Assembly (NCBI RefSeq): GCF_003260195.1
Contig: NZ_QEIH01000009.1
Coordinates: forward strand, 124,001-188,000
Source of the DNA: Lutibacter citreus
GTDB taxonomy: Bacteria; Bacteroidota; Bacteroidia; Flavobacteriales; Flavobacteriaceae
Length of the DNA: 64,000 nt
Reading direction: 5' to 3'
The notes under the pieces are model-generated. The model saw only the letters and a list, made by a program, of their open reading frames with translations, made no database searches and was not told the DNA's origin. The position numbers were made by a program, and so were the translations under genes. This document shows, in pieces, positions 21,262-30,048 of this stretch. The first letter of the stretch is position 1; each line of letters starts with the position of its first letter.

Positions 21262-22806
21262 ATGGCTATTGAGCAAAAAGATGCACTTTTTACATTAGTA
21301 AAGTCACTTTCAAAATCTGAAAAACGACAATTTAAACTGTATGTTGGTAGATTAGGGGGAAATTCTGAAGCTAATTTTATATCGTTATTTAATTTATTGG
21401 ATAAAGTAAATGTTTATAATGATGGTTTAATATTAAAAAAAACCAATATTAAAAAACAGCAAATATCTAATACCAAAGCACATTTATATAAGCAAATTTT
21501 GGTGAGTTTAAGGATGAATCCTGTGCATCAAAATGTAAGTTCGCAAATAAGAGAGCAGTTTGATTTTGCAACTGTTTTGTATAACAAAGGTTTGTATAAG
21601 CAAAGTTTAAAAATTTTAGATAAAGCAAAAGAGTTGGCGCTTAGTAATGGTGAAAATAATTTAGCTTATGAAATAGTTGAGTTTGAAAAAATTATAGAAT
21701 CACAATATATTACAAGAAGTATGAGTAATAGAGCAGATGAACTTGCTGAACAAGCAAAGGAGTTAAGCTTAAAAAATGTGAGAATTAGTAAGCTTTCAAA
21801 CTTATCACTTCAATTATATAGTTTGCTTTTAAAAGCTGGTTATGTGAAAGATAACAAAGATTCTACATTATTAACAGAGTATTTTGAAAGTAGAATGCCG
21901 AAATTTGATTTGATGAAAATGGGTTTTAAGGAGAAGCTTTTTTTATACAAAGCTTATTTATGGCATAGCTTTATTAAACAAGATTTTGTTTCGGTATATA
22001 AATATTCTCATAAATGGGTTGATTTGTTTGAAGAGAATCCAGAAATGAAAAAACAACATCCTGTTTTTTATTTAAAAGGAGTCAATTATTTGGCAGAATC
22101 TCTATATTTAAATAGTCATAGAACAAAGTTTAAGGCAATACTTGAATCGTTAGATTTTGATATTAAAAACAATAATATAGTTTTAAATCAAAACACTAGT
22201 ACGTTGGCCTTTATTTATTACAATCAAAATAAATTGAACTTGTTTTTTTTAGAAGGGCAGTTTACAAAAGGACTAGATTTTGTTCAAAATTTATTAATTG
22301 AACTTAAAAAGTTTGAAGGGCAAATTGATGCGCATCACATTATGGTTTTTTACTATAAAATTGGTTGTATGTATTTTGGAGCTGGTAAAAACGAAGAGTG
22401 TATTTTTTATCTTCAAAAAATTATAAATAATAAAGATTTAAAAATGAGAGAAGACTTATTGTGTTTTTCTCGAGTTTTAAATTTGGTAACACATTACGAA
22501 GCTGGTATAGATTATAATATTGAAAAGCTTATTGTTTCAACATATAAATTTTTGTTGAAAATGGATGATTTACATGAGGTGCAGCGTAAAATGATCGCTT
22601 TTCTTAAAAACTTAAGTGATATATATCCTCAAGATTTACGTAAAGAATTTATTAAGCTTCATAAAGAATTAAGTAAATATAAAGAGCATCCTTTTGAAAA
22701 AAGAGCTTTCTTGTATTTAGATATTTTATCTTGGTTAGAAAGTAAAATTGAAAATAAATCAGTTGAGTCTATTATTCAAGAAAAGGCAAAAAAACTTTTA
22801 AAATAA
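21262..22806 (+). CDS. Helical-repeat protein of unknown function
   Basis: The 514-aa product has no signal peptide or membrane segment. It consists almost wholly of predicted alpha helices with tetratricopeptide-like periodicity (for example LYNKGLYKQSLKILDKAKELA at about residues 111-131). The N-terminus (LFTLVKSLSKSEKRQFKLYVG) looks conserved in Bacteroidota from memory. No enzymatic motif is visible, and a cytoplasmic scaffold role is possible but unsupported. It is transcribed divergently from leuA and precedes the ilv leader region, with no clear terminator after it. Confidence 0.65.
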   Translation: MAIEQKDALFTLVKSLSKSEKRQFKLYVGRLGGNSEANFISLFNLLDKVNVYNDGLILKKTNIKKQQISNTKAHLYKQILVSLRMNPVHQNVSSQIREQFDFATVLYNKGLYKQSLKILDKAKELALSNGENNLAYEIVEFEKIIESQYITRSMSNRADELAEQAKELSLKNVRISKLSNLSLQLYSLLLKAGYVKDNKDSTLLTEYFESRMPKFDLMKMGFKEKLFLYKAYLWHSFIKQDFVSVYKYSHKWVDLFEENPEMKKQHPVFYLKGVNYLAESLYLNSHRTKFKAILESLDFDIKNNNIVLNQNTSTLAFIYYNQNKLNLFFLEGQFTKGLDFVQNLLIELKKFEGQIDAHHIMVFYYKIGCMYFGAGKNEECIFYLQKIINNKDLKMREDLLCFSRVLNLVTHYEAGIDYNIEKLIVSTYKFLLKMDDLHEVQRKMIAFLKNLSDIYPQDLRKEFIKLHKELSKYKEHPFEKRAFLYLDILSWLESKIENKSVESIIQEKAKKLLK

Positions 22807-22821
22807 AATTTAAACAAAACT

Positions 22822-22851
22822 TTGCTTTTAAAAAAATAAGTTACATATTTG
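22822..22851 (+). promoter_or_regulatory. Promoter of the ilv operon
   Basis: TTG at 22822-22824, a 19-base spacer and CATATTTG at 22844-22851 match the consensus with one mismatch in the -7 element. The spacing is identical to that of the phe/tyr promoter. The leader peptide start codon lies 11 bases downstream. Confidence 0.55.
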
Positions 22852-22861
22852 TTTTTCAATT

Positions 22862-22927
22862 ATGAAGAAAGTCAATATCAATATCTTTTCTGTAAATGTC
22901 TCTGTGATTATTTCGCAAGTAGGTTAG
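22862..22927 (+). CDS. First ilv leader peptide (Val/Ile rich)
   Basis: This 21-codon ORF begins MKKVNINIFSVNVSV. It contains five Val and four Ile codons, nine of 21 residues, ending in VIISQVG. Two Val codons are GTC, which is uncommon in this AT-rich DNA. It lies between the ilv promoter and an intrinsic terminator. Stalling on Val or Ile codons would be expected to free the antiterminator arm at the stop codon. Function is inferred from composition and RNA geometry; it is too short for standard gene finding. Confidence 0.8.
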   Translation: MKKVNINIFSVNVSVIISQVG

Positions 22928-22969
22928 GACTGTTATTGTAATTACATATAAATTATAAAGCCTTCCTAA
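22924..22969 (+). promoter_or_regulatory. Antiterminator pairing of ilv attenuator 1
   Basis: TTAGGA at 22924-22929 overlaps the leader stop codon (22925-22927). It is complementary to TCCTAA at 22964-22969, within the 5' arm of the terminator. Only six pairs are visible, so this is the weakest of the three antiterminators. Confidence 0.5.
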
Positions 22970-22989
22970 ATTTTAGTAAGGCTTTTTTA
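22959..22989 (+). terminator. Intrinsic terminator of ilv attenuator 1
   Basis: AGCCTTcCTAAA (22959-22970) pairs with TTTAGtAAGGCT (22972-22983) over 12 positions with a single mismatch, followed by six T residues. Confidence 0.88.
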
Positions 22990-22999
22990 TTATAAAAAA

Positions 23000-23062
23000 A
23001 TGAAATTAATAAAAATACAAATCGTCATTTTAATTCAAGTCGTTATTGTCTTAATAACGTGA
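23000..23062 (+). CDS. Second ilv leader peptide (Ile/Val/Leu rich)
   Basis: This 20-codon ORF reads MKLIKIQIVILIQVVIVLIT. Fourteen of its 20 residues are branched-chain: seven Ile, four Val and three Leu. It starts 11 bases after the T run of the first ilv terminator and is followed by its own terminator, so the two attenuators are in series on one transcript. Leu appears only in this second leader. Translation and regulatory function are inferred. No promoter is obvious between the two leaders. Confidence 0.8.
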   Translation: MKLIKIQIVILIQVVIVLIT

Positions 23063-23102
23063 TGAAGGTTTGTATATATAATCAAATAAAAAAACCTACA
23101 TC
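23061..23102 (+). promoter_or_regulatory. Antiterminator pairing of ilv attenuator 2
   Basis: GATGAAGGTTT at 23061-23071, overlapping the leader stop codon 23060-23062, can pair with AAACCTACATC at 23092-23102 at ten of 11 positions. The segment nearly copies the terminator's own 3' arm (GATGTAGGTTT), so it acts as a decoy. The two structures are mutually exclusive. Confidence 0.72.
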
Positions 23103-23127
23103 TAAAAAAATGATGTAGGTTTTTTTA
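23091..23127 (+). terminator. Intrinsic terminator of ilv attenuator 2
   Basis: AAAACCTACATC (23091-23102) and GATGTAGGTTTT (23112-23123) form a perfect 12-bp stem with a nine-base loop, and the T run continues to 23126. Confidence 0.9.
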
Positions 23128-23336
23128 TTGCATAATCATTGTAAAAAATAACAACTTAAAAATCTTAAAATCAATATATTATGAATAATTAGAAGAGACT
23201 GAATATTGTAAAAAAAGTAAAAAAAAAAGTAATAAAACAAATATCTAATTTAAATTTGTTCCTTATTAAAAAATAGTAAATATAAATTGAATTAATTTGC
23301 GAATTATTCAGTGAAATTGAAAAAACATTAAAATAA
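23128..23336 (+). other. 5' untranslated region of ilvD
   Basis: No ORF or hairpin of note is present after the second terminator. TAAATTTG at 23251-23258 fits a -7 element, but no TTG lies at the right distance upstream. An internal basal promoter that bypasses both attenuators is therefore possible but weakly supported. Confidence 0.4.
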
Positions 23337-25019
23337 ATGCAATTAAACAAATATAGTAAAAGAGTAACACAAGATCCAACGCAACCTGCAGCTCAAGCAA
23401 TGTTGTATGGAGTAGGTTTATCTGATGATGATATGAAAAAACCTCAAGTTGGTATTGCAAGTACTGGTTATGATGGTAACCCTTGTAATATGCACCTTAA
23501 TGGCTTAGCTGGATTTATTCAAGATGAAGTAAATAAAAATGACTTAGTTGGATTAAAGTTTAATACAATTGGAGTTAGTGATGGTATTTCAATGGGGACT
23601 TCAGGGATGAATTATTCTTTACCTTCTCGTGATGTTATTGCAGACTCTATTGAAATAGTAATGAATGCACAAAGTTATGATGGTTTAGTTACCGTTGTAG
23701 GTTGTGATAAAAATATGCCAGGAGCAATTATGGCAATGCTACGTTTAAATCGTCCATCATTAATGGTGTACGGAGGAACAATTGCTTCGGGAAAACACAA
23801 TGGTAAAAAATTAAATATTGTTTCTGCTTTTGAAGCCTTAGGTCAGAAAATATCTGGAGCTATAGATGAAGAAGAATATAGACAAATTATTAAAAAAGCA
23901 ATTCCAGGAGCAGGAGCTTGTGGAGGTATGTATACAGCAAATACAATGGCATCATCAATTGAAGCTATGGGATTTGCATTACCATATAATTCATCAATTC
24001 CAGCTGAAAATCCTCATAAAGAATCTGAAAGTGAGCGAATTGCCGCAGCTATCAAAAATTTACTGGAGTTGGATTTGAAACCTTTAGATATAATTACAAA
24101 AAAATCTCTTGAAAATGCAATTACATTAGTAAATGCTTTAGGAGGTTCTACAAATGCAGTACTACATTATTTAGCAATTGCACACGCAGCAGGTATTGAA
24201 TTTACTTTAGATGATTTTCAACGTGTAAGTGATAAAACACCTTTAATAGCAGATTTAAAACCAAGTGGAGAATATTTAATGGAAGATGTTCACGGAGTTG
24301 GAGGTACACCTGCAATTATGAAATATTTATTAGATGAAGGTTTTTTACATGGAGATTGTATGACAATTACAGGTAAAACATTGGCTGAGAATTTAGCAGA
24401 TGTAAAAGCTATTAAGTTTGAAGATGGTCAGGATGTTATTCATCCAACAGATAAAGCATTAAAATCTTCTGGAAATCTTCAAATTTTATTCGGAAATCTT
24501 GCTACAGCAGGTTCCGTAGCTAAAATTAGTGGTAAAGAAGGAAATTTATTTGAAGGGAAAGCAGTAGTTTTTAATAGTGAAGACGAAGCAAATGCAGGAA
24601 TTGGTGCAGGAAAAGTTTCAAGAGGAGATGTAGTAGTTATAAGATATGTAGGCCCAAAAGGAGGTCCGGGAATGCCAGAAATGCTAAAGCCAACTTCTAT
24701 GATAATGGGAGCAGGTTTAGGGAAATCAGTAGCGTTAATTACTGATGGACGTTTCTCTGGTGGAACTCACGGATTTGTTGTAGGACATATTACTCCAGAA
24801 GCACAATCTGGAGGAACAATTGGTTTGATAGAAGATGGTGATATTATTAAAATTGATGCCTCAAATAATTCTATTAATGTTCTTGTTTCTGAAGAAATAT
24901 TAGCAGAAAGAAAGACAAAGTGGGTTGAACCAGCTCCAAAACATACAAAAGGAATATTATATAAATATGCTAAAACAGTTTCTTCTGCTTCAGAAGGATG
25001 TGTTACAGATAAATTTTAA
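23337..25019 (+). CDS. ilvD: Dihydroxy-acid dehydratase
   Basis: It dehydrates dihydroxy-acids to 2-keto acids, the third common step of valine and isoleucine synthesis. The iron-sulfur cluster cysteines are visible in HLNGLAGF-adjacent CNMH, in [14 protein letters not shown] and in [12 protein letters not shown]. The length of 560 aa is standard for the IlvD/Edd family. It is the first structural gene of the ilv operon and is followed after three bases by ilvB. Expression is probably set by the two tandem attenuators upstream. Confidence 0.96.
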
Positions 25020-25022
25020 TAT

Positions 25023-26756
25023 ATGAAAACATTAAACAAGGAAGCGAAACAGAAGGAGACAGCAAAAACTGTTAAAATTTCAGGTGCAGAGGCAGTTCTA
25101 AATTGCCTTTTAGCGGAAGGTGCTGATTTGGCTTTTGGATATCCGGGAGGAGCCATTATGCCAGTTTATGATGAAATATATAAATATCGTGAAAAATTTC
25201 ACCATGTTTTAACACGTCATGAACAAGGAGCAATACACGCAGCGCAAGGCTTTGCACGTGTTACTGGAAAACCAGGAATTGTATTTGCAACCTCAGGACC
25301 TGGAGCAACAAATTTAGTTACTGGTATTGCTGATGCCCAAATAGATTCTACACCTTTAGTGTGTATTACAGGTCAAGTAGCATCTCATTTATTAGGGTCG
25401 GATGCTTTTCAGGAAACCGATATAATTGGTATTTCAACACCTGTAACCAAATGGAATTATCAAGTTACAAAAGCTTCAGAAATCCCTGAAGTTATTGCTA
25501 AAGCATTTTACATTGCAAAATCTGGAAGACCAGGACCCGTTTTAATTGATATTACTAAAGATGCTCAATTTGGAGAGTTGGATTTTTCATATAAAAAATG
25601 TGAAAAAATAAGAAGTTATAGAGCAATTCCTAAGTTTGATACTAAAAAAGTAAAAGAAGCAGCTACATTAATAAATAGCGCAAAAAAACCATTTATTGTT
25701 TGGGGACAAGGAGTTATAATTGGTGAAGCAGAACAAGAGTTTAAAAACTTTATAGAAAAAACAAATATTCCTTCAGCTTGTACAGGTCTTGGCCTTTCAG
25801 CTTTAGATACAGCACACCCTTTAAATGTTGGTATGGTTGGTATGCATGGTAATTATGCACCAAATGTATTAACCAATTCTTGTGATGTTTTAATTGCTAT
25901 TGGTATGCGTTTTGATGACCGTGTTACTGGAAATTTAGAAACATACGCAAAGCAAGCAAAAGTTATTCATTTAGAAATTGACCCTTCTGAAATTGATAAA
26001 AATGTAAAAACAGATATTGCTGTTTTGGGTTCAGTAAAGGAAACTTTAGTGGATATAATGCAATATGTTAATAAAGGAGATCATAGTGAATGGATGAAAG
26101 AATTTGATAAATTATATCAAATTGAAAAAGAAACTGTAATTGACGATCAATTAAATCCTATCAAGCAAGGCTTAACAATGGGTGAGGTTTTAAGTGGTAT
26201 TAATAAAGAAACAAAAGGAGATGCTGTAATAGTTACCGATGTTGGGCAGCATCAAATGTTTGCTTGGCGTTATGCTAACTTTACAAAAACAAGAAGTAAT
26301 GTTACTTCTGGTGGATTGGGAACTATGGGATTTGCATTGCCAGCAGCAATTGGTGCAAAACTGGGAGTTCCAAATCGTGAAGTAATTGCTATTATTGGAG
26401 ATGGAGGTTATCAAATGACTTGTAATGAATTGGGGACAATATTACAAACAAGAGCAGCTGTTAAAATTGTAGTATTAAATAATGGTTATTTAGGAATGGT
26501 ACGTCAATGGCAAGAACTGTTTTTTGATAAACGCTATGCCTCAACAGAAATGGTGAGTCCAGATTTTGTTAAATTAGCAGAATCTTATGATATTGAAGCT
26601 CAAAGAGTTTCGAGTCGAGGAAATTTGGCTCAAGCAATAAAAACAATGGTGCAATCAAAAGAATCCTATTTTCTTGAAGTAGTTATTGAAAAAGAAGACA
26701 ATGTTTTTCCAATGATACCAACAGGAGCAAGTGTTTCAGATATAAGATTAAGTTAA
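25023..26756 (+). CDS. ilvB: Acetolactate synthase large subunit
   Basis: This thiamine-diphosphate enzyme forms acetolactate or acetohydroxybutyrate. The activating glutamate lies in VLTRHEQGAIHAAQGFAR. The TPP-binding motif GDGGYQMTCNELGT continues to the conserved asparagines in VVLNNGYLGMVRQWQELFF. The length of 577 aa suits a catalytic subunit. It is followed two bases later by the regulatory subunit gene, with which it forms the holoenzyme. Confidence 0.95.
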   Translation: MKTLNKEAKQKETAKTVKISGAEAVLNCLLAEGADLAFGYPGGAIMPVYDEIYKYREKFHHVLTRHEQGAIHAAQGFARVTGKPGIVFATSGPGATNLVTGIADAQIDSTPLVCITGQVASHLLGSDAFQETDIIGISTPVTKWNYQVTKASEIPEVIAKAFYIAKSGRPGPVLIDITKDAQFGELDFSYKKCEKIRSYRAIPKFDTKKVKEAATLINSAKKPFIVWGQGVIIGEAEQEFKNFIEKTNIPSACTGLGLSALDTAHPLNVGMVGMHGNYAPNVLTNSCDVLIAIGMRFDDRVTGNLETYAKQAKVIHLEIDPSEIDKNVKTDIAVLGSVKETLVDIMQYVNKGDHSEWMKEFDKLYQIEKETVIDDQLNPIKQGLTMGEVLSGINKETKGDAVIVTDVGQHQMFAWRYANFTKTRSNVTSGGLGTMGFALPAAIGAKLGVPNREVIAIIGDGGYQMTCNELGTILQTRAAVKIVVLNNGYLGMVRQWQELFFDKRYASTEMVSPDFVKLAESYDIEAQRVSSRGNLAQAIKTMVQSKESYFLEVVIEKEDNVFPMIPTGASVSDIRLS

Positions 26757-26758
26757 TT

Positions 26759-27280
26759 ATGGAAGAAATTATAAATTTTACATTTTCAGTATATACTGAA
26801 AATAACGTAGGAATATTAAACCGTCTTTCTGCAATATTTTTAAAACGACATATTAATATTGAGAGTATGTCTGTTTCAAAATCAGAAATTGAAAACGTTC
26901 ACAGATTTACATTTGTAGTGAATATACCTGAAGTACTAGCTAGAAAAGTTGCAGGGCAATTAGAAAAGCAAATTGAAGTAATACGAGCTTTTTATCACAC
27001 ACAAGATGAAATTATTTACAATGAAACAGCTTTGTTTAAAATTTCATCAGAACATTTATACGATGAGAAACTTCAGAAAAAATTTAAATTTAGAAGAGCT
27101 CATATACTTACAATAACTGAAAATTATTTTGTTATTGAAGCTTCAGGAACAAAAGAAAATATAGATAAAATGTATAGGAAATTAAAACCTTATGGTTTGT
27201 TGCAATTTGTTCGTTCAGGACGTATAGCAATTACAAGACCTAAAATGGCAATTTCAGAATTATTACAAGAATTTAATTAA
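26759..27280 (+). CDS. ilvN: Acetolactate synthase small (regulatory) subunit
   Basis: An N-terminal ACT domain (about residues 5-80, with NFTFSVYTENNVGILNRLSAIFLKRHINIESMSV) binds branched-chain amino acids for feedback control. The C-terminal domain activates the large subunit. At 173 aa it has the usual two-domain length. Its start is two bases after the ilvB stop. Confidence 0.94.
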   Translation: MEEIINFTFSVYTENNVGILNRLSAIFLKRHINIESMSVSKSEIENVHRFTFVVNIPEVLARKVAGQLEKQIEVIRAFYHTQDEIIYNETALFKISSEHLYDEKLQKKFKFRRAHILTITENYFVIEASGTKENIDKMYRKLKPYGLLQFVRSGRIAITRPKMAISELLQEFN

Positions 27281-27301: not shown

Positions 27302-28774
27302 ATGGCAAATTATTTTAACACACTTTCATTAAGAGATAAATTAGATCAATTAGGAAAATGTAGATTTATGGATTCTTCGGAATTTGGAGAAGGTGTAGAA
27401 GCTTTAAAAGGAAAAAAAATTGTAATTATTGGTTGTGGAGCTCAAGGGTTAAATCAAGGTTTAAATATGAGAGATTCAGGTTTAGATGTTTCTTATACAT
27501 TAAGACCTGCTGCAATTGCTGAAAAAAGACAATCGTTTTTAAATGCTTCAGAGAACAATTTTAAAGTAGGAACTTATGAAGAAATGATTCCTTCTGCAGA
27601 TTTACTAATTAATTTAACTCCAGATAAGCAACACTCAAATGTTGTTAATGCAGTTATGCCTTTAATGAAAAAAGGAGCAACATTATCGTATTCTCACGGA
27701 TTCAATATTGTTGAAGAAGGAATGCAAGTACGTAAAGATATAACAGTGATTATGGTAGCTCCAAAATCACCTGGTTCTGAAGTAAGAGAAGAATATAAAA
27801 GAGGTTTTGGTGTTCCAACATTAATAGCGGTACATCCAGAAAATGATCCTGAAGGAAAGGGTTGGGCACAAGCAAAAGCTTATGCAGTTGGTACTGGAGG
27901 TCACACAGCGGGTGTGTTAGAATCTTCATTTGTAGCTGAGGTAAAATCAGATTTAATGGGTGAACAAACTATACTTTGTGGTTTGTTACAAACAGGATCT
28001 ATTTTATGTTTCGACAAAATGATTGATGAAGGTGTAGAAGCAGGTTATGCTTCTAAATTAATTCAATATGGTTGGGAAACTATTACAGAAGCTTTAAAAT
28101 ATGGAGGTATTACTAATATGATGGATAGACTTTCTAATCCAGCAAAAATAGCAGCATTTAAAGTTTCAGAAGAATTAAAAGAAATTATGCGTCCATTATT
28201 TCAAAAACATATGGATGATATTATGGAAGGTGAATTCTCAAAAACAATGATGGAGGATTGGGCTAATGATGATGTTAATTTATTAACTTGGAGAGCTGCA
28301 ACAGGCGAAACTGCATTTGAAAAAACTCCTGCAGGAGATGTTGAAATTTCTGAACAAGAATATTTTGATAATGGTGCATTAATGGTAGCCATGGTAAAAG
28401 CAGGTGTTGAATTGGCTTTTGAAGCAATGACAGATTCTGGTATTATTGATGAATCTGCTTATTATGAATCTTTACACGAAACTCCATTAATCGCAAACAC
28501 AATTGCAAGAAGAAAATTATACGAAATGAATAGTGTAATTTCTGATACAGCTGAATACGGTTGTTATTTATTTGATCACGCTTGTAAACCTTTAATTGCA
28601 GATTATGTTAAAAATGCGCCAAGTAATTTAGTTGGTCGCCCATTTAATGATGGTACTACAGGAGTTGATAATAAAGAGTTAATTGAAGTAAATGCAGTTA
28701 TTAGAAATCACCCAGTTGAAGAAATAGGGGAGTATTTAAGAGAATCTATGACGGCAATGAAGAAAATTATTTAA
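27302..28774 (+). CDS. ilvC: Ketol-acid reductoisomerase, class II
   Basis: It converts acetolactate to dihydroxyisovalerate with NADPH. The Rossmann motif [20 protein letters not shown] and the reductoisomerase knotted domains are clear. At 490 aa it is the long class II form, whose knotted domain is duplicated within one chain. The gene follows ilvN after 21 bases. Confidence 0.96.
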
Positions 28775-28785
28775 AAAATTAAATT

Positions 28786-30048
28786 TTGAGTGAATCTACT
28801 AAAAAAAGTATTTCATTAGAAAAAATTTATAAAGCTCAACAGAGCATTAAAGGAGTTGTGCAAGCAACTCCTTTAATGTTTATGAAAAATTTTTCTGAGG
28901 AATACGGAGCAAATATTTATTTTAAAAGAGAAGATCTTCAAGTTGTCCGTTCCTATAAAATTAGAGGAGCCTATAATAAAATTCAAGGTTTATCATCTAA
29001 GGAATTAGAAAATGGAATTGTTTGTGCAAGTGCAGGAAATCACGCACAAGGAGTTGCTTTTGCTTGTAAGAAATTAGAAGTGAATGGAACTATTTTTATG
29101 CCTGTAACTACGCCTCATCAAAAAATTGATCAGGTAAGAATGTTTGGTGGTGAGTTTGTTGATGTACAGCTTATTGGTGATAGTTATGATGATAGCCAAG
29201 CAGCTGCTAAGGAATTTTGTGATGCTAACAATAGTACGTTTGTGCATCCGTTTGATGATTTAGATGTTATTGCCGGTCAAGGAACAATTGGTTTGGAAAT
29301 ATTGAATGATATTGATACTCAAATTGATTACTTATTTATGCCTGTTGGAGGAGGAGGTTTAGCTTCTGGAGTGGGAAGTGTTTTTAAAGCTTTAAGTCCA
29401 GAAACAAAACTTATTGGGGTAGAGCCTAAAGGAGCGCCTTCTTTAACAACTTCATTAAAAAACGGAATAAATACAACCTTAACTGAAATTGAAAAGTTTG
29501 TTGATGGTGCTGCTGTTAAAAGAATGGGAGAAATTACTTTTGAGTTTTGTAAAGAGTTGTTAAACAATACAGATACCGTTTGTGAAGGACAAATTTGCAC
29601 AACAATATTAAAAGTATATAATGAAAATGCTTTGGTGGTTGAACCTGCCGGCGCATTGTCTATTGCTGTTTTAGAACAGTATAAAGAGCAAATTAAAGGA
29701 AAGACAGTTGTATGTGTTGTAAGTGGAGGTAATAATGATATTACCCGAATGGAAGAAATGAAAGAAAGAGCTTTACTTTTTAAAGGTTTAAAGCATTATT
29801 TTATTATTAGATTTCCGCAAAGAGCTGGGGCTTTAAAAGAATTTGTAGTTGATGTTTTAGGTGCAAACGACGATATAACCTATTTTGAATATACAAAAAA
29901 GAATAATAGAGATAATGGACCTGCAGTAGTTGGGATTCAACTTGAATCTAAAGAAGATTTTGAACCTTTAGTGGCAAGAATGAAAGAAAAGGGGTTTTTG
30001 GGAGATTATTTAAATGATAATCCTGAATTATTTCAATTTTTAATTTAA
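28786..30048 (+). CDS. ilvA: Threonine dehydratase
   Basis: It deaminates threonine to 2-oxobutyrate, the committed step to isoleucine. The PLP lysine is in SYKIRGAYNK, with CASAGNHAQGVAF and the phosphate loop PVGGGGLASGVG. A C-terminal ACT-like domain of about 90 residues (from roughly LKHYFIIRFPQRAGAL) provides regulation. The start is a TTG codon at 28786; no ATG fits without losing conserved N-terminal residues. It closes the ilv operon. I saw no terminator immediately after it. Confidence 0.93.
   Translation: MSESTKKSISLEKIYKAQQSIKGVVQATPLMFMKNFSEEYGANIYFKREDLQVVRSYKIRGAYNKIQGLSSKELENGIVCASAGNHAQGVAFACKKLEVNGTIFMPVTTPHQKIDQVRMFGGEFVDVQLIGDSYDDSQAAAKEFCDANNSTFVHPFDDLDVIAGQGTIGLEILNDIDTQIDYLFMPVGGGGLASGVGSVFKALSPETKLIGVEPKGAPSLTTSLKNGINTTLTEIEKFVDGAAVKRMGEITFEFCKELLNNTDTVCEGQICTTILKVYNENALVVEPAGALSIAVLEQYKEQIKGKTVVCVVSGGNNDITRMEEMKERALLFKGLKHYFIIRFPQRAGALKEFVVDVLGANDDITYFEYTKKNNRDNGPAVVGIQLESKEDFEPLVARMKEKGFLGDYLNDNPELFQFLI

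Follow-up and report, generated by a model that had tools for sequence, protein, structure and literature searches.

The locus described here raises the question of whether transcription of a single branched-chain amino acid operon might be controlled by two leader-peptide attenuators placed one after the other. In a 64,000-nucleotide stretch of the Lutibacter citreus genome (the window; the genome is 5.1 Mb), a gene ending at 22806 is followed on the same strand by a gap of 530 bases, by ilvD, which starts at 23337, and by ilvB, ilvN, ilvC and ilvA (Table 1). These five genes form an operon making isoleucine and valine, the amino acids that both putative leaders would sense. The closest named relatives of the window's IlvD are from Lutibacter (83-86% identity), and at G000:C1:103188-104813 there is another ilvD-like gene, with 44% identity to the IlvD of the window. 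A previous sequence-only reading had noted two short ORFs rich in branched-chain codons in the gap, each followed by a terminator, and had proposed that they act in series like an AND gate. The proposal of two attenuators in series is supported by our analysis, in which each unit was found again in relatives and the arms on average fitted their own partners. We estimate at about 78% the probability that two ribosome-mediated attenuators stand in series before ilvDBNCA, with multiplying effects rather than a strict AND gate.

Table 1. Positions of the leader elements, promoter-like boxes and ilv genes in the window.
Feature	Position	Strand	Basis
Promoter-like -7 box CATATTTG, 5/6 fixed bases of TAnnTTTG	22844..22851	+	consensus match
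Leader peptide ORF A, 21 aa, stop TAG (putative)	22862..22927	+	ORF scan and detector; type-A leaders in relatives
Candidate antiterminator arm A2, overlapping leader A stop codon TAG	22919..22932	+	duplex energy, swap test
Putative intrinsic terminator A, stem 22957-22985 and T tract	22957..22989	+	fold, detector
Leader peptide ORF B, 20 aa, stop TGA (putative)	23000..23062	+	ORF scan and detector
Candidate antiterminator arm B2, beginning at leader B stop codon TGA	23060..23072	+	duplex energy, swap test
Putative intrinsic terminator B, stem 23088-23126 into T tract	23088..23127	+	fold, detector
TAAATTTG, full TAnnTTTG match, between terminator B and ilvD	23251..23258	+	consensus, genus conservation
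ilvD, dihydroxy-acid dehydratase	23337..25019	+	NCBIfam
ilvB, acetolactate synthase large subunit	25023..26756	+	family search
ilvN, acetolactate synthase small subunit	26759..27280	+	family search
ilvC, ketol-acid reductoisomerase	27302..28774	+	family search
ilvA, threonine ammonia-lyase	28786..30048	+	family search

The two leader ORFs and their terminator-like hairpins were found in the gap where they had been placed, and the codon counts were as originally given. The product of ORF A is MKKVNINIFSVNVSVIISQVG, with valine or isoleucine at nine of 21 codons and no leucine, and that of ORF B is MKLIKIQIVILIQVVIVLIT, with isoleucine, valine or leucine at 14 of 20. Judged from the sequence, a putative intrinsic terminator consisting of a hairpin and a T tract lies between each leader ORF and the first gene, and ORF B starts directly 3' of the T tract of terminator A. 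Taken alone, hairpin A folds at -10.3 kcal/mol (z = -3.2) and runs into its T tract, and hairpin B folds at -17.3 kcal/mol (z = -10.6). The fold of the whole unit A was modestly better than that of shuffled sequences (z = -1.8, with 12 of 200 shuffles as good), and a simple terminator scan reported neither hairpin in the window. The arm of the window's terminator B has the sequence CCTACATC in place of the usual CCTGTATC, of which it is a variant; this hairpin was filed as type B by its place, its TGA arm, its leader (VILIQV) and its flanks, and the sorting rule had a clause for CCTACATC.

A competing arm was confirmed by duplex energies at each leader stop codon. Arm B2 pairs with hairpin B at -11.5 kcal/mol (one of 100 shuffled arms did as well), and a hand check bore out the pairing at ten of 11 positions claimed for it, with one A:A mismatch. 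Arm A2 pairs with the 5' half of terminator A at -8.4 kcal/mol, which was equalled by 10 of 100 shuffled arms. The two units of the window may not be independent, because hairpin B is a better partner for arm A2 (-10.1 kcal/mol) than its own hairpin is; arm B2 with hairpin A gave -10.0 kcal/mol. A scan of the window against Rfam gave a tRNA as the sole match above the gathering score, and between 22700 and 23400 the best sub-threshold match was Thr_leader with 29.9 bits versus the 55 needed. By this measure the leader belongs neither to the T-boxes nor to another known RNA family.

The detector of leader-terminator units required an ORF with an ATG start and 10-42 codons, at least eight Ile/Leu/Val among 14 consecutive residues (seven of 14 at a looser setting), and, shortly before a T tract, a hairpin folding at -8 kcal/mol or lower. 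When the gap was shuffled 4000 times with dinucleotides preserved and searched with a slightly simpler detector, 3996 shuffles contained no unit, four contained one and none contained the two found in the real gap. We also collected 249 distinct ilvD upstream regions, comprising the window, 80 named loci (some from outside Flavobacteriaceae), 34 genomes of the genus and 141 genomes of the family, less seven duplicates. The 141 family genomes came from the better-scoring part of the 319 that gave a match among 395 searched, and distant members are thus under-represented. Chance counts were made on the 246 regions with at least 600 bases. Two or more units were present in 17 of these (15 A-B and two of other types), as against 0/738 shuffled and 0/246 reverse-complemented regions, and at least one unit was present in 130/246, as against 1/738 shuffles and 2/246 reverse complements. 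At the looser setting the corresponding numbers for real, shuffled and reverse-complemented regions were 138, 9 and 9 for at least one unit and 19, 0 and 1 for at least two. These counts point to frequent attenuation by leader peptides upstream of ilvD in this group of bacteria, at least one unit being found in 138/249 regions (looser setting, including some false 'other' units and some loci outside Flavobacteriaceae).

Two types of unit were recognized. Type A terminators have GCCTTCC..GGAAGGC or a near variant and leaders like NIISI.VSVIIS; type B terminators usually have CCTGTATCA..TGATACAGG, and 26 of 28 B leaders stop with TGA, which is itself part of the antiterminator arm. The exact B pattern occurred in 15 of 199 family genomes, that of the window not being one of them, at one place in each, and ilvD adjoined it in 13 of the 15. 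The strict type-A hairpin pattern had no match across the genome to which the window belongs, because the window's hairpin A does not fit it. Sorted at the looser setting, the 249 regions gave 111 with no unit, 91 A, 16 A-B, 16 other, 12 B, two other-A and one other-other, some of the 'other' units being false (e.g. L083). Relatives therefore carry A, B or both, and where both are present the order is the same: A was upstream of B in 17/17 cases, 16 by the detector and one with a GTG start (L085) by eye.

An ilvD match was obtained in 35 of the 38 genomes of the genus, of which 12 had A-B (11 by the detector and L085 by eye), 20 had A only (including L089 by eye), one had neither (L240) and two were not judgeable owing to other DNA upstream (L093) or a contig end (L109). 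Five further A-B cases came from outside the genus, namely G397 and G287 (both of one genus), G298, G347 and Gaetbulibacter sp. S0825, which was grouped with G347. In a quick IlvD tree of 120 rows, in which L085 and L089 kept their detector labels, A-B was scattered over two deep clades with 12 changes, and nine of 500 shuffles gave a number as low. In most A-only members of the genus the terminator lies at the position that B's terminator has in the tandems. Two of the genomes (L088 and L090) have 77 and 65 bases at B's place, ending with AGGTTTTTTTATA as B does. Compared with intact B regions these stretches gave z-scores of 2.2-5.0, and the reading of them as remnants of B is weak because genomes with just 10-12 bases there gave 0.9-4.9. 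The distribution fits an ancestral A-B arrangement with repeated loss of B; gain is also possible. A and B appear to be two distinct types that are gained or lost as modules, and a fresh duplication as the origin of A-B was rejected given that the two units are weakly alike (z = 2.5-6.4).

Other arrangements were encountered during these searches. Aquimarina L024 has two near-identical units before ilvD (z = 20.7), apparently a recent and independent duplication, and L031, a MAG titled Ignavibacteriae whose contig may be misassigned, has two leader-terminator units before ilvD. In L242 and L272 (genome G015, contig 8), taking the sequence at face value, an A-B leader precedes an open-frame ilvD remnant of 81 aa and then ilvB; a further ilvD-like gene with 43% identity is located elsewhere in that genome. 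In the window, ATAATCATTGTAAAA lies at 23132-23146, immediately 3' of terminator B. Both it and its reversed control have a single occurrence in the genome, and its core TCATTGTAA was present in 28/31 regions of the genus and in 0/90 other regions.

If each arm serves its own terminator, exchanging arms among units of the same type should weaken the pairing. The mean energy of own versus swapped arm 2:arm 3 pairs was -9.7 versus -8.5 kcal/mol for 109 A units and -12.8 versus -10.5 kcal/mol for 28 B units, and for each type 0/2000 permutations were as low, a test that is inflated by relatedness. At most five of 100 shuffled arms matched the real arm in 79/109 A units and 26/28 B units; the remaining 30 and two units failed this 5% level. 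Within the 16 tandems the mean energies were -9.5 kcal/mol for A with its own hairpin, -12.5 for B with its own, -6.9 for arm A2 with hairpin B and -3.7 for arm B2 with hairpin A, and the own hairpin was preferred by B2 in 16/16 and by A2 in 11/16. Two putative sensing ORFs with separate structures accordingly lie in one leader, the separateness holding on average only.

Folding with a masked ribosome footprint predicted that the antiterminator forms when the A site is at codons 1-18 of leader A or 1-14 of leader B, and at neither stop codon; with the ribosome stalled at codons 16-17 of leader B the 1:2 stem was favoured. In computation the antiterminator is thus mutually exclusive with the terminator and covered at the stop, less clearly so for the window's unit A. 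In the equilibrium model without a ribosome the arm 2:3 antiterminator also forms in both units, and the classical shut-down of an untranslated leader is therefore not predicted by the model.

We propose that one transcript would run from just before leader A through two attenuators to ilvDBNCA. A ribosome at a leader stop codon would cover the antiterminator arm, the terminator hairpin would form and transcription would end. A ribosome held at Ile or Val codons in leader A, or at Ile, Val or Leu codons in leader B, would leave the arm free to pair with the terminator's 5' side, which would let RNA polymerase continue. With the units in series, read-through probabilities would multiply and log-sensitivities would add, by a reasoning that assumes independence. 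Such a series would be expected to broaden the dynamic range and to make the Ile and Val sensitivities additive, and in the genus B would add a partial Leu input. A counterpoint to the need for a tandem is that 20 of the 35 genus genomes manage with A alone. The proposed AND gate would hold insofar as polymerase would have to pass both units, but not in the strict sense, given the predicted multiplication, the opening of B alone when only Leu is short, the possible bypass at 23251-23258 and the fit of arm A2 to hairpin B.

That only the second leader contains Leu is correct for the window but not in general. A Leu codon was present in 12/12 B leaders and 4/12 A leaders of the genus tandem genomes, Ile and Val being common to both, and TTA follows ATT in 12/12 of these B leaders; in the tandems outside the genus, 3/5 B leaders lack Leu. 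Leu sensing would be a genus-level trait. Because A would open on shortage of Ile or Val, shortage of Leu alone would open B only, and with A remaining shut Leu could therefore only modulate expression. No Leu-rich ORF was seen by eye in the short gap upstream of leuA.

The share of GTC among Val codons was 1% of 1158 in 44 long ORFs of the window, 37% of 97 in the A leaders of the genus and 82% of 22 in its B leaders. Arm 2 pairs more with GTC codons of both leader types, and with the ATC codons of A leaders, than with synonymous codons, which is not the case for ATC in B leaders. RNA structure may explain the excess of GTC, because these codons pair more with arm 2, and the bias was not carried forward as proof of selection on decoding. 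In a tRNA survey in which 150/526 and 150/447 candidates were scored, tRNA-Val(UAC) was the only Val tRNA seen and no tRNA-Ile was seen; three G025 matches had no type assigned.

Promoters of Bacteroidota use boxes other than those of the sigma-70 type. A sigma-70 promoter scan was uninformative (6 matches, 7.1 expected). With the -7 box consensus and spacing from PMC6847099, the box before leader A (Table 1) predicts a transcript start at about 22856, and therefore a 5' UTR of about six bases that would make leader A nearly leaderless. A TATTTG-like box is found just before leader A in most of the 31 aligned genus regions, and (T/C)AnnTTTG occurred within 60 bases of the first leader in 43/121 regions with an A or B unit (reversed pattern 20/121). 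A separate promoter between the leaders would speak against a tandem on one transcript, and the box search found (T/C)AnnTTTG within 60 bases before the start of the second leader in 0/16 detected tandems; one of the 16 has TAnnTTTG elsewhere between its leaders. Downstream of both units, TAAATTTG near -80 from ilvD was present in 27/31 genus regions and 0/90 others, where any TAnnTTTG occurred in 31/90 (reversed control 18/90). This box could be an attenuator-independent promoter that bypasses both units.

It is improbable that such a bypass supplies most of the ilv mRNA and leaves the attenuators to trim a minor transcript. The downstream box is a full match to the flavobacterial -7 consensus and the box before leader A carries one mismatch, but the latter is likewise conserved in the genus, and the downstream box is genus-specific with a reversed control that reaches 13/31 there because the site is partly palindromic. 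Somewhat easier to envisage, and still unlikely, is that one unit is active and the other is a decaying leftover, for instance the window's unit A, whose hairpin is weaker and mismatched. At -10.3 kcal/mol the window's terminator A falls short of most of the A terminators listed in the genus, arm A2 beats just 90 of 100 shuffles and prefers hairpin B, and 20 genus genomes with A alone together with the possible B remnants in L088 and L090 would agree with a single unit. On the other hand, leader A of the window still has an open frame with nine Val/Ile codons, a TAG within the arm and its T tract, and none of the 32 judgeable genus genomes with any unit (L089 and L085 by eye) lacks a type-A unit; one further genome has no unit at all.

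Coupling of the units, in which arm A2 also serves hairpin B and a stall in leader A can open both, would agree with the stronger pairing of A2 with hairpin B in the window and in 4/15 other tandems; the own pair is stronger in 11/16 tandems, however, and the 5' half of hairpin A, as the first to be made, would normally capture A2; we regard coupling as quite improbable. Since a same-strand gene ends upstream at 22806, the hairpins could in principle be its ordinary terminators and the ORFs incidental. This is very hard to reconcile with the frequency, far higher than in shuffles, at which Ile/Val-rich ORFs precede such hairpins in relatives, with arms at leader stops that on average fit their own hairpins, and with a promoter-like box between the upstream gene and leader A. 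Two attenuators in series before ilvDBNCA thus remained the preferred explanation. More tentatively, with somewhat less than even confidence, Flavobacteriaceae might possess two separate and old families of branched-chain attenuators, A and B, used as modules either alone or in the fixed order A-B, which would make the control of ilvDBNCA multiplicative and raise its gain; in one genus B would be tuned to Leu, and the modules would be gained or lost via the similar T-tract ends of the terminators.

The ilv operons of E. coli and Corynebacterium have one attenuator per leader. Ribosome-mediated attenuators are described for ilvGMEDA and ilvBN of E. coli (PMC1183508) and an attenuator for ilvBNC of Corynebacterium (PMC1262725, PMC11857589, PMC10272879), and the locus studied here resembles them in its Ile/Val/Leu-rich leader peptides, its alternative hairpins including a terminator and the biosynthetic operon 3' of them. 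It differs from them in having two types in series and in a leader A predicted to be nearly leaderless. A precedent for caution is Streptomyces coelicolor, in which replacing candidate regulatory codons before ilvB was without effect (PMC1262725). For Flavobacterium psychrophilum, which also belongs to the Flavobacteriaceae, 'strong clues' have been reported for attenuation by leader peptides ahead of amino-acid operons (PMC9723704); 'ilv' is absent from the main text of that paper and its relevant section names no tandem. The earlier statement that no tandem ilv attenuator has been described agrees with our search of the open-access literature, which found no tandem amino-acid leader with two intrinsic terminators, ilv leaders included, and does not imply absence from print. 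Tandem attenuators as such have been described (PMC3641672), and apparently it is the tandem ilv leader with two intrinsic terminators that is new. The determinants of gain in ribosome-mediated attenuation are a question for theory (PMC1183508), and relatives with A, B or A-B before the same gene represent a natural experiment on the addition of a second attenuator.

In arrangement the locus is like the tandem attenuators in the single mRNA leader of Salmonella mgtCBR, which also has two short ORFs, each tied to alternative stem-loops (PMC3641672). There the signals are ATP and proline, acting independently and additively, and the stem-loops are unlike intrinsic terminators (PMC3641672), whereas here both leaders are of the branched-chain type, the hairpins are of the intrinsic-terminator kind and the operon is biosynthetic. 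Tandem riboswitches (metE, glycine) are ligand-binding RNAs without leader peptides. Like those of B. clausii metE, where the two sites are expected to act as intrinsic terminators (PMC3641672), and of the glycine type, the putative attenuators before ilvDBNCA would place two sensors in series.
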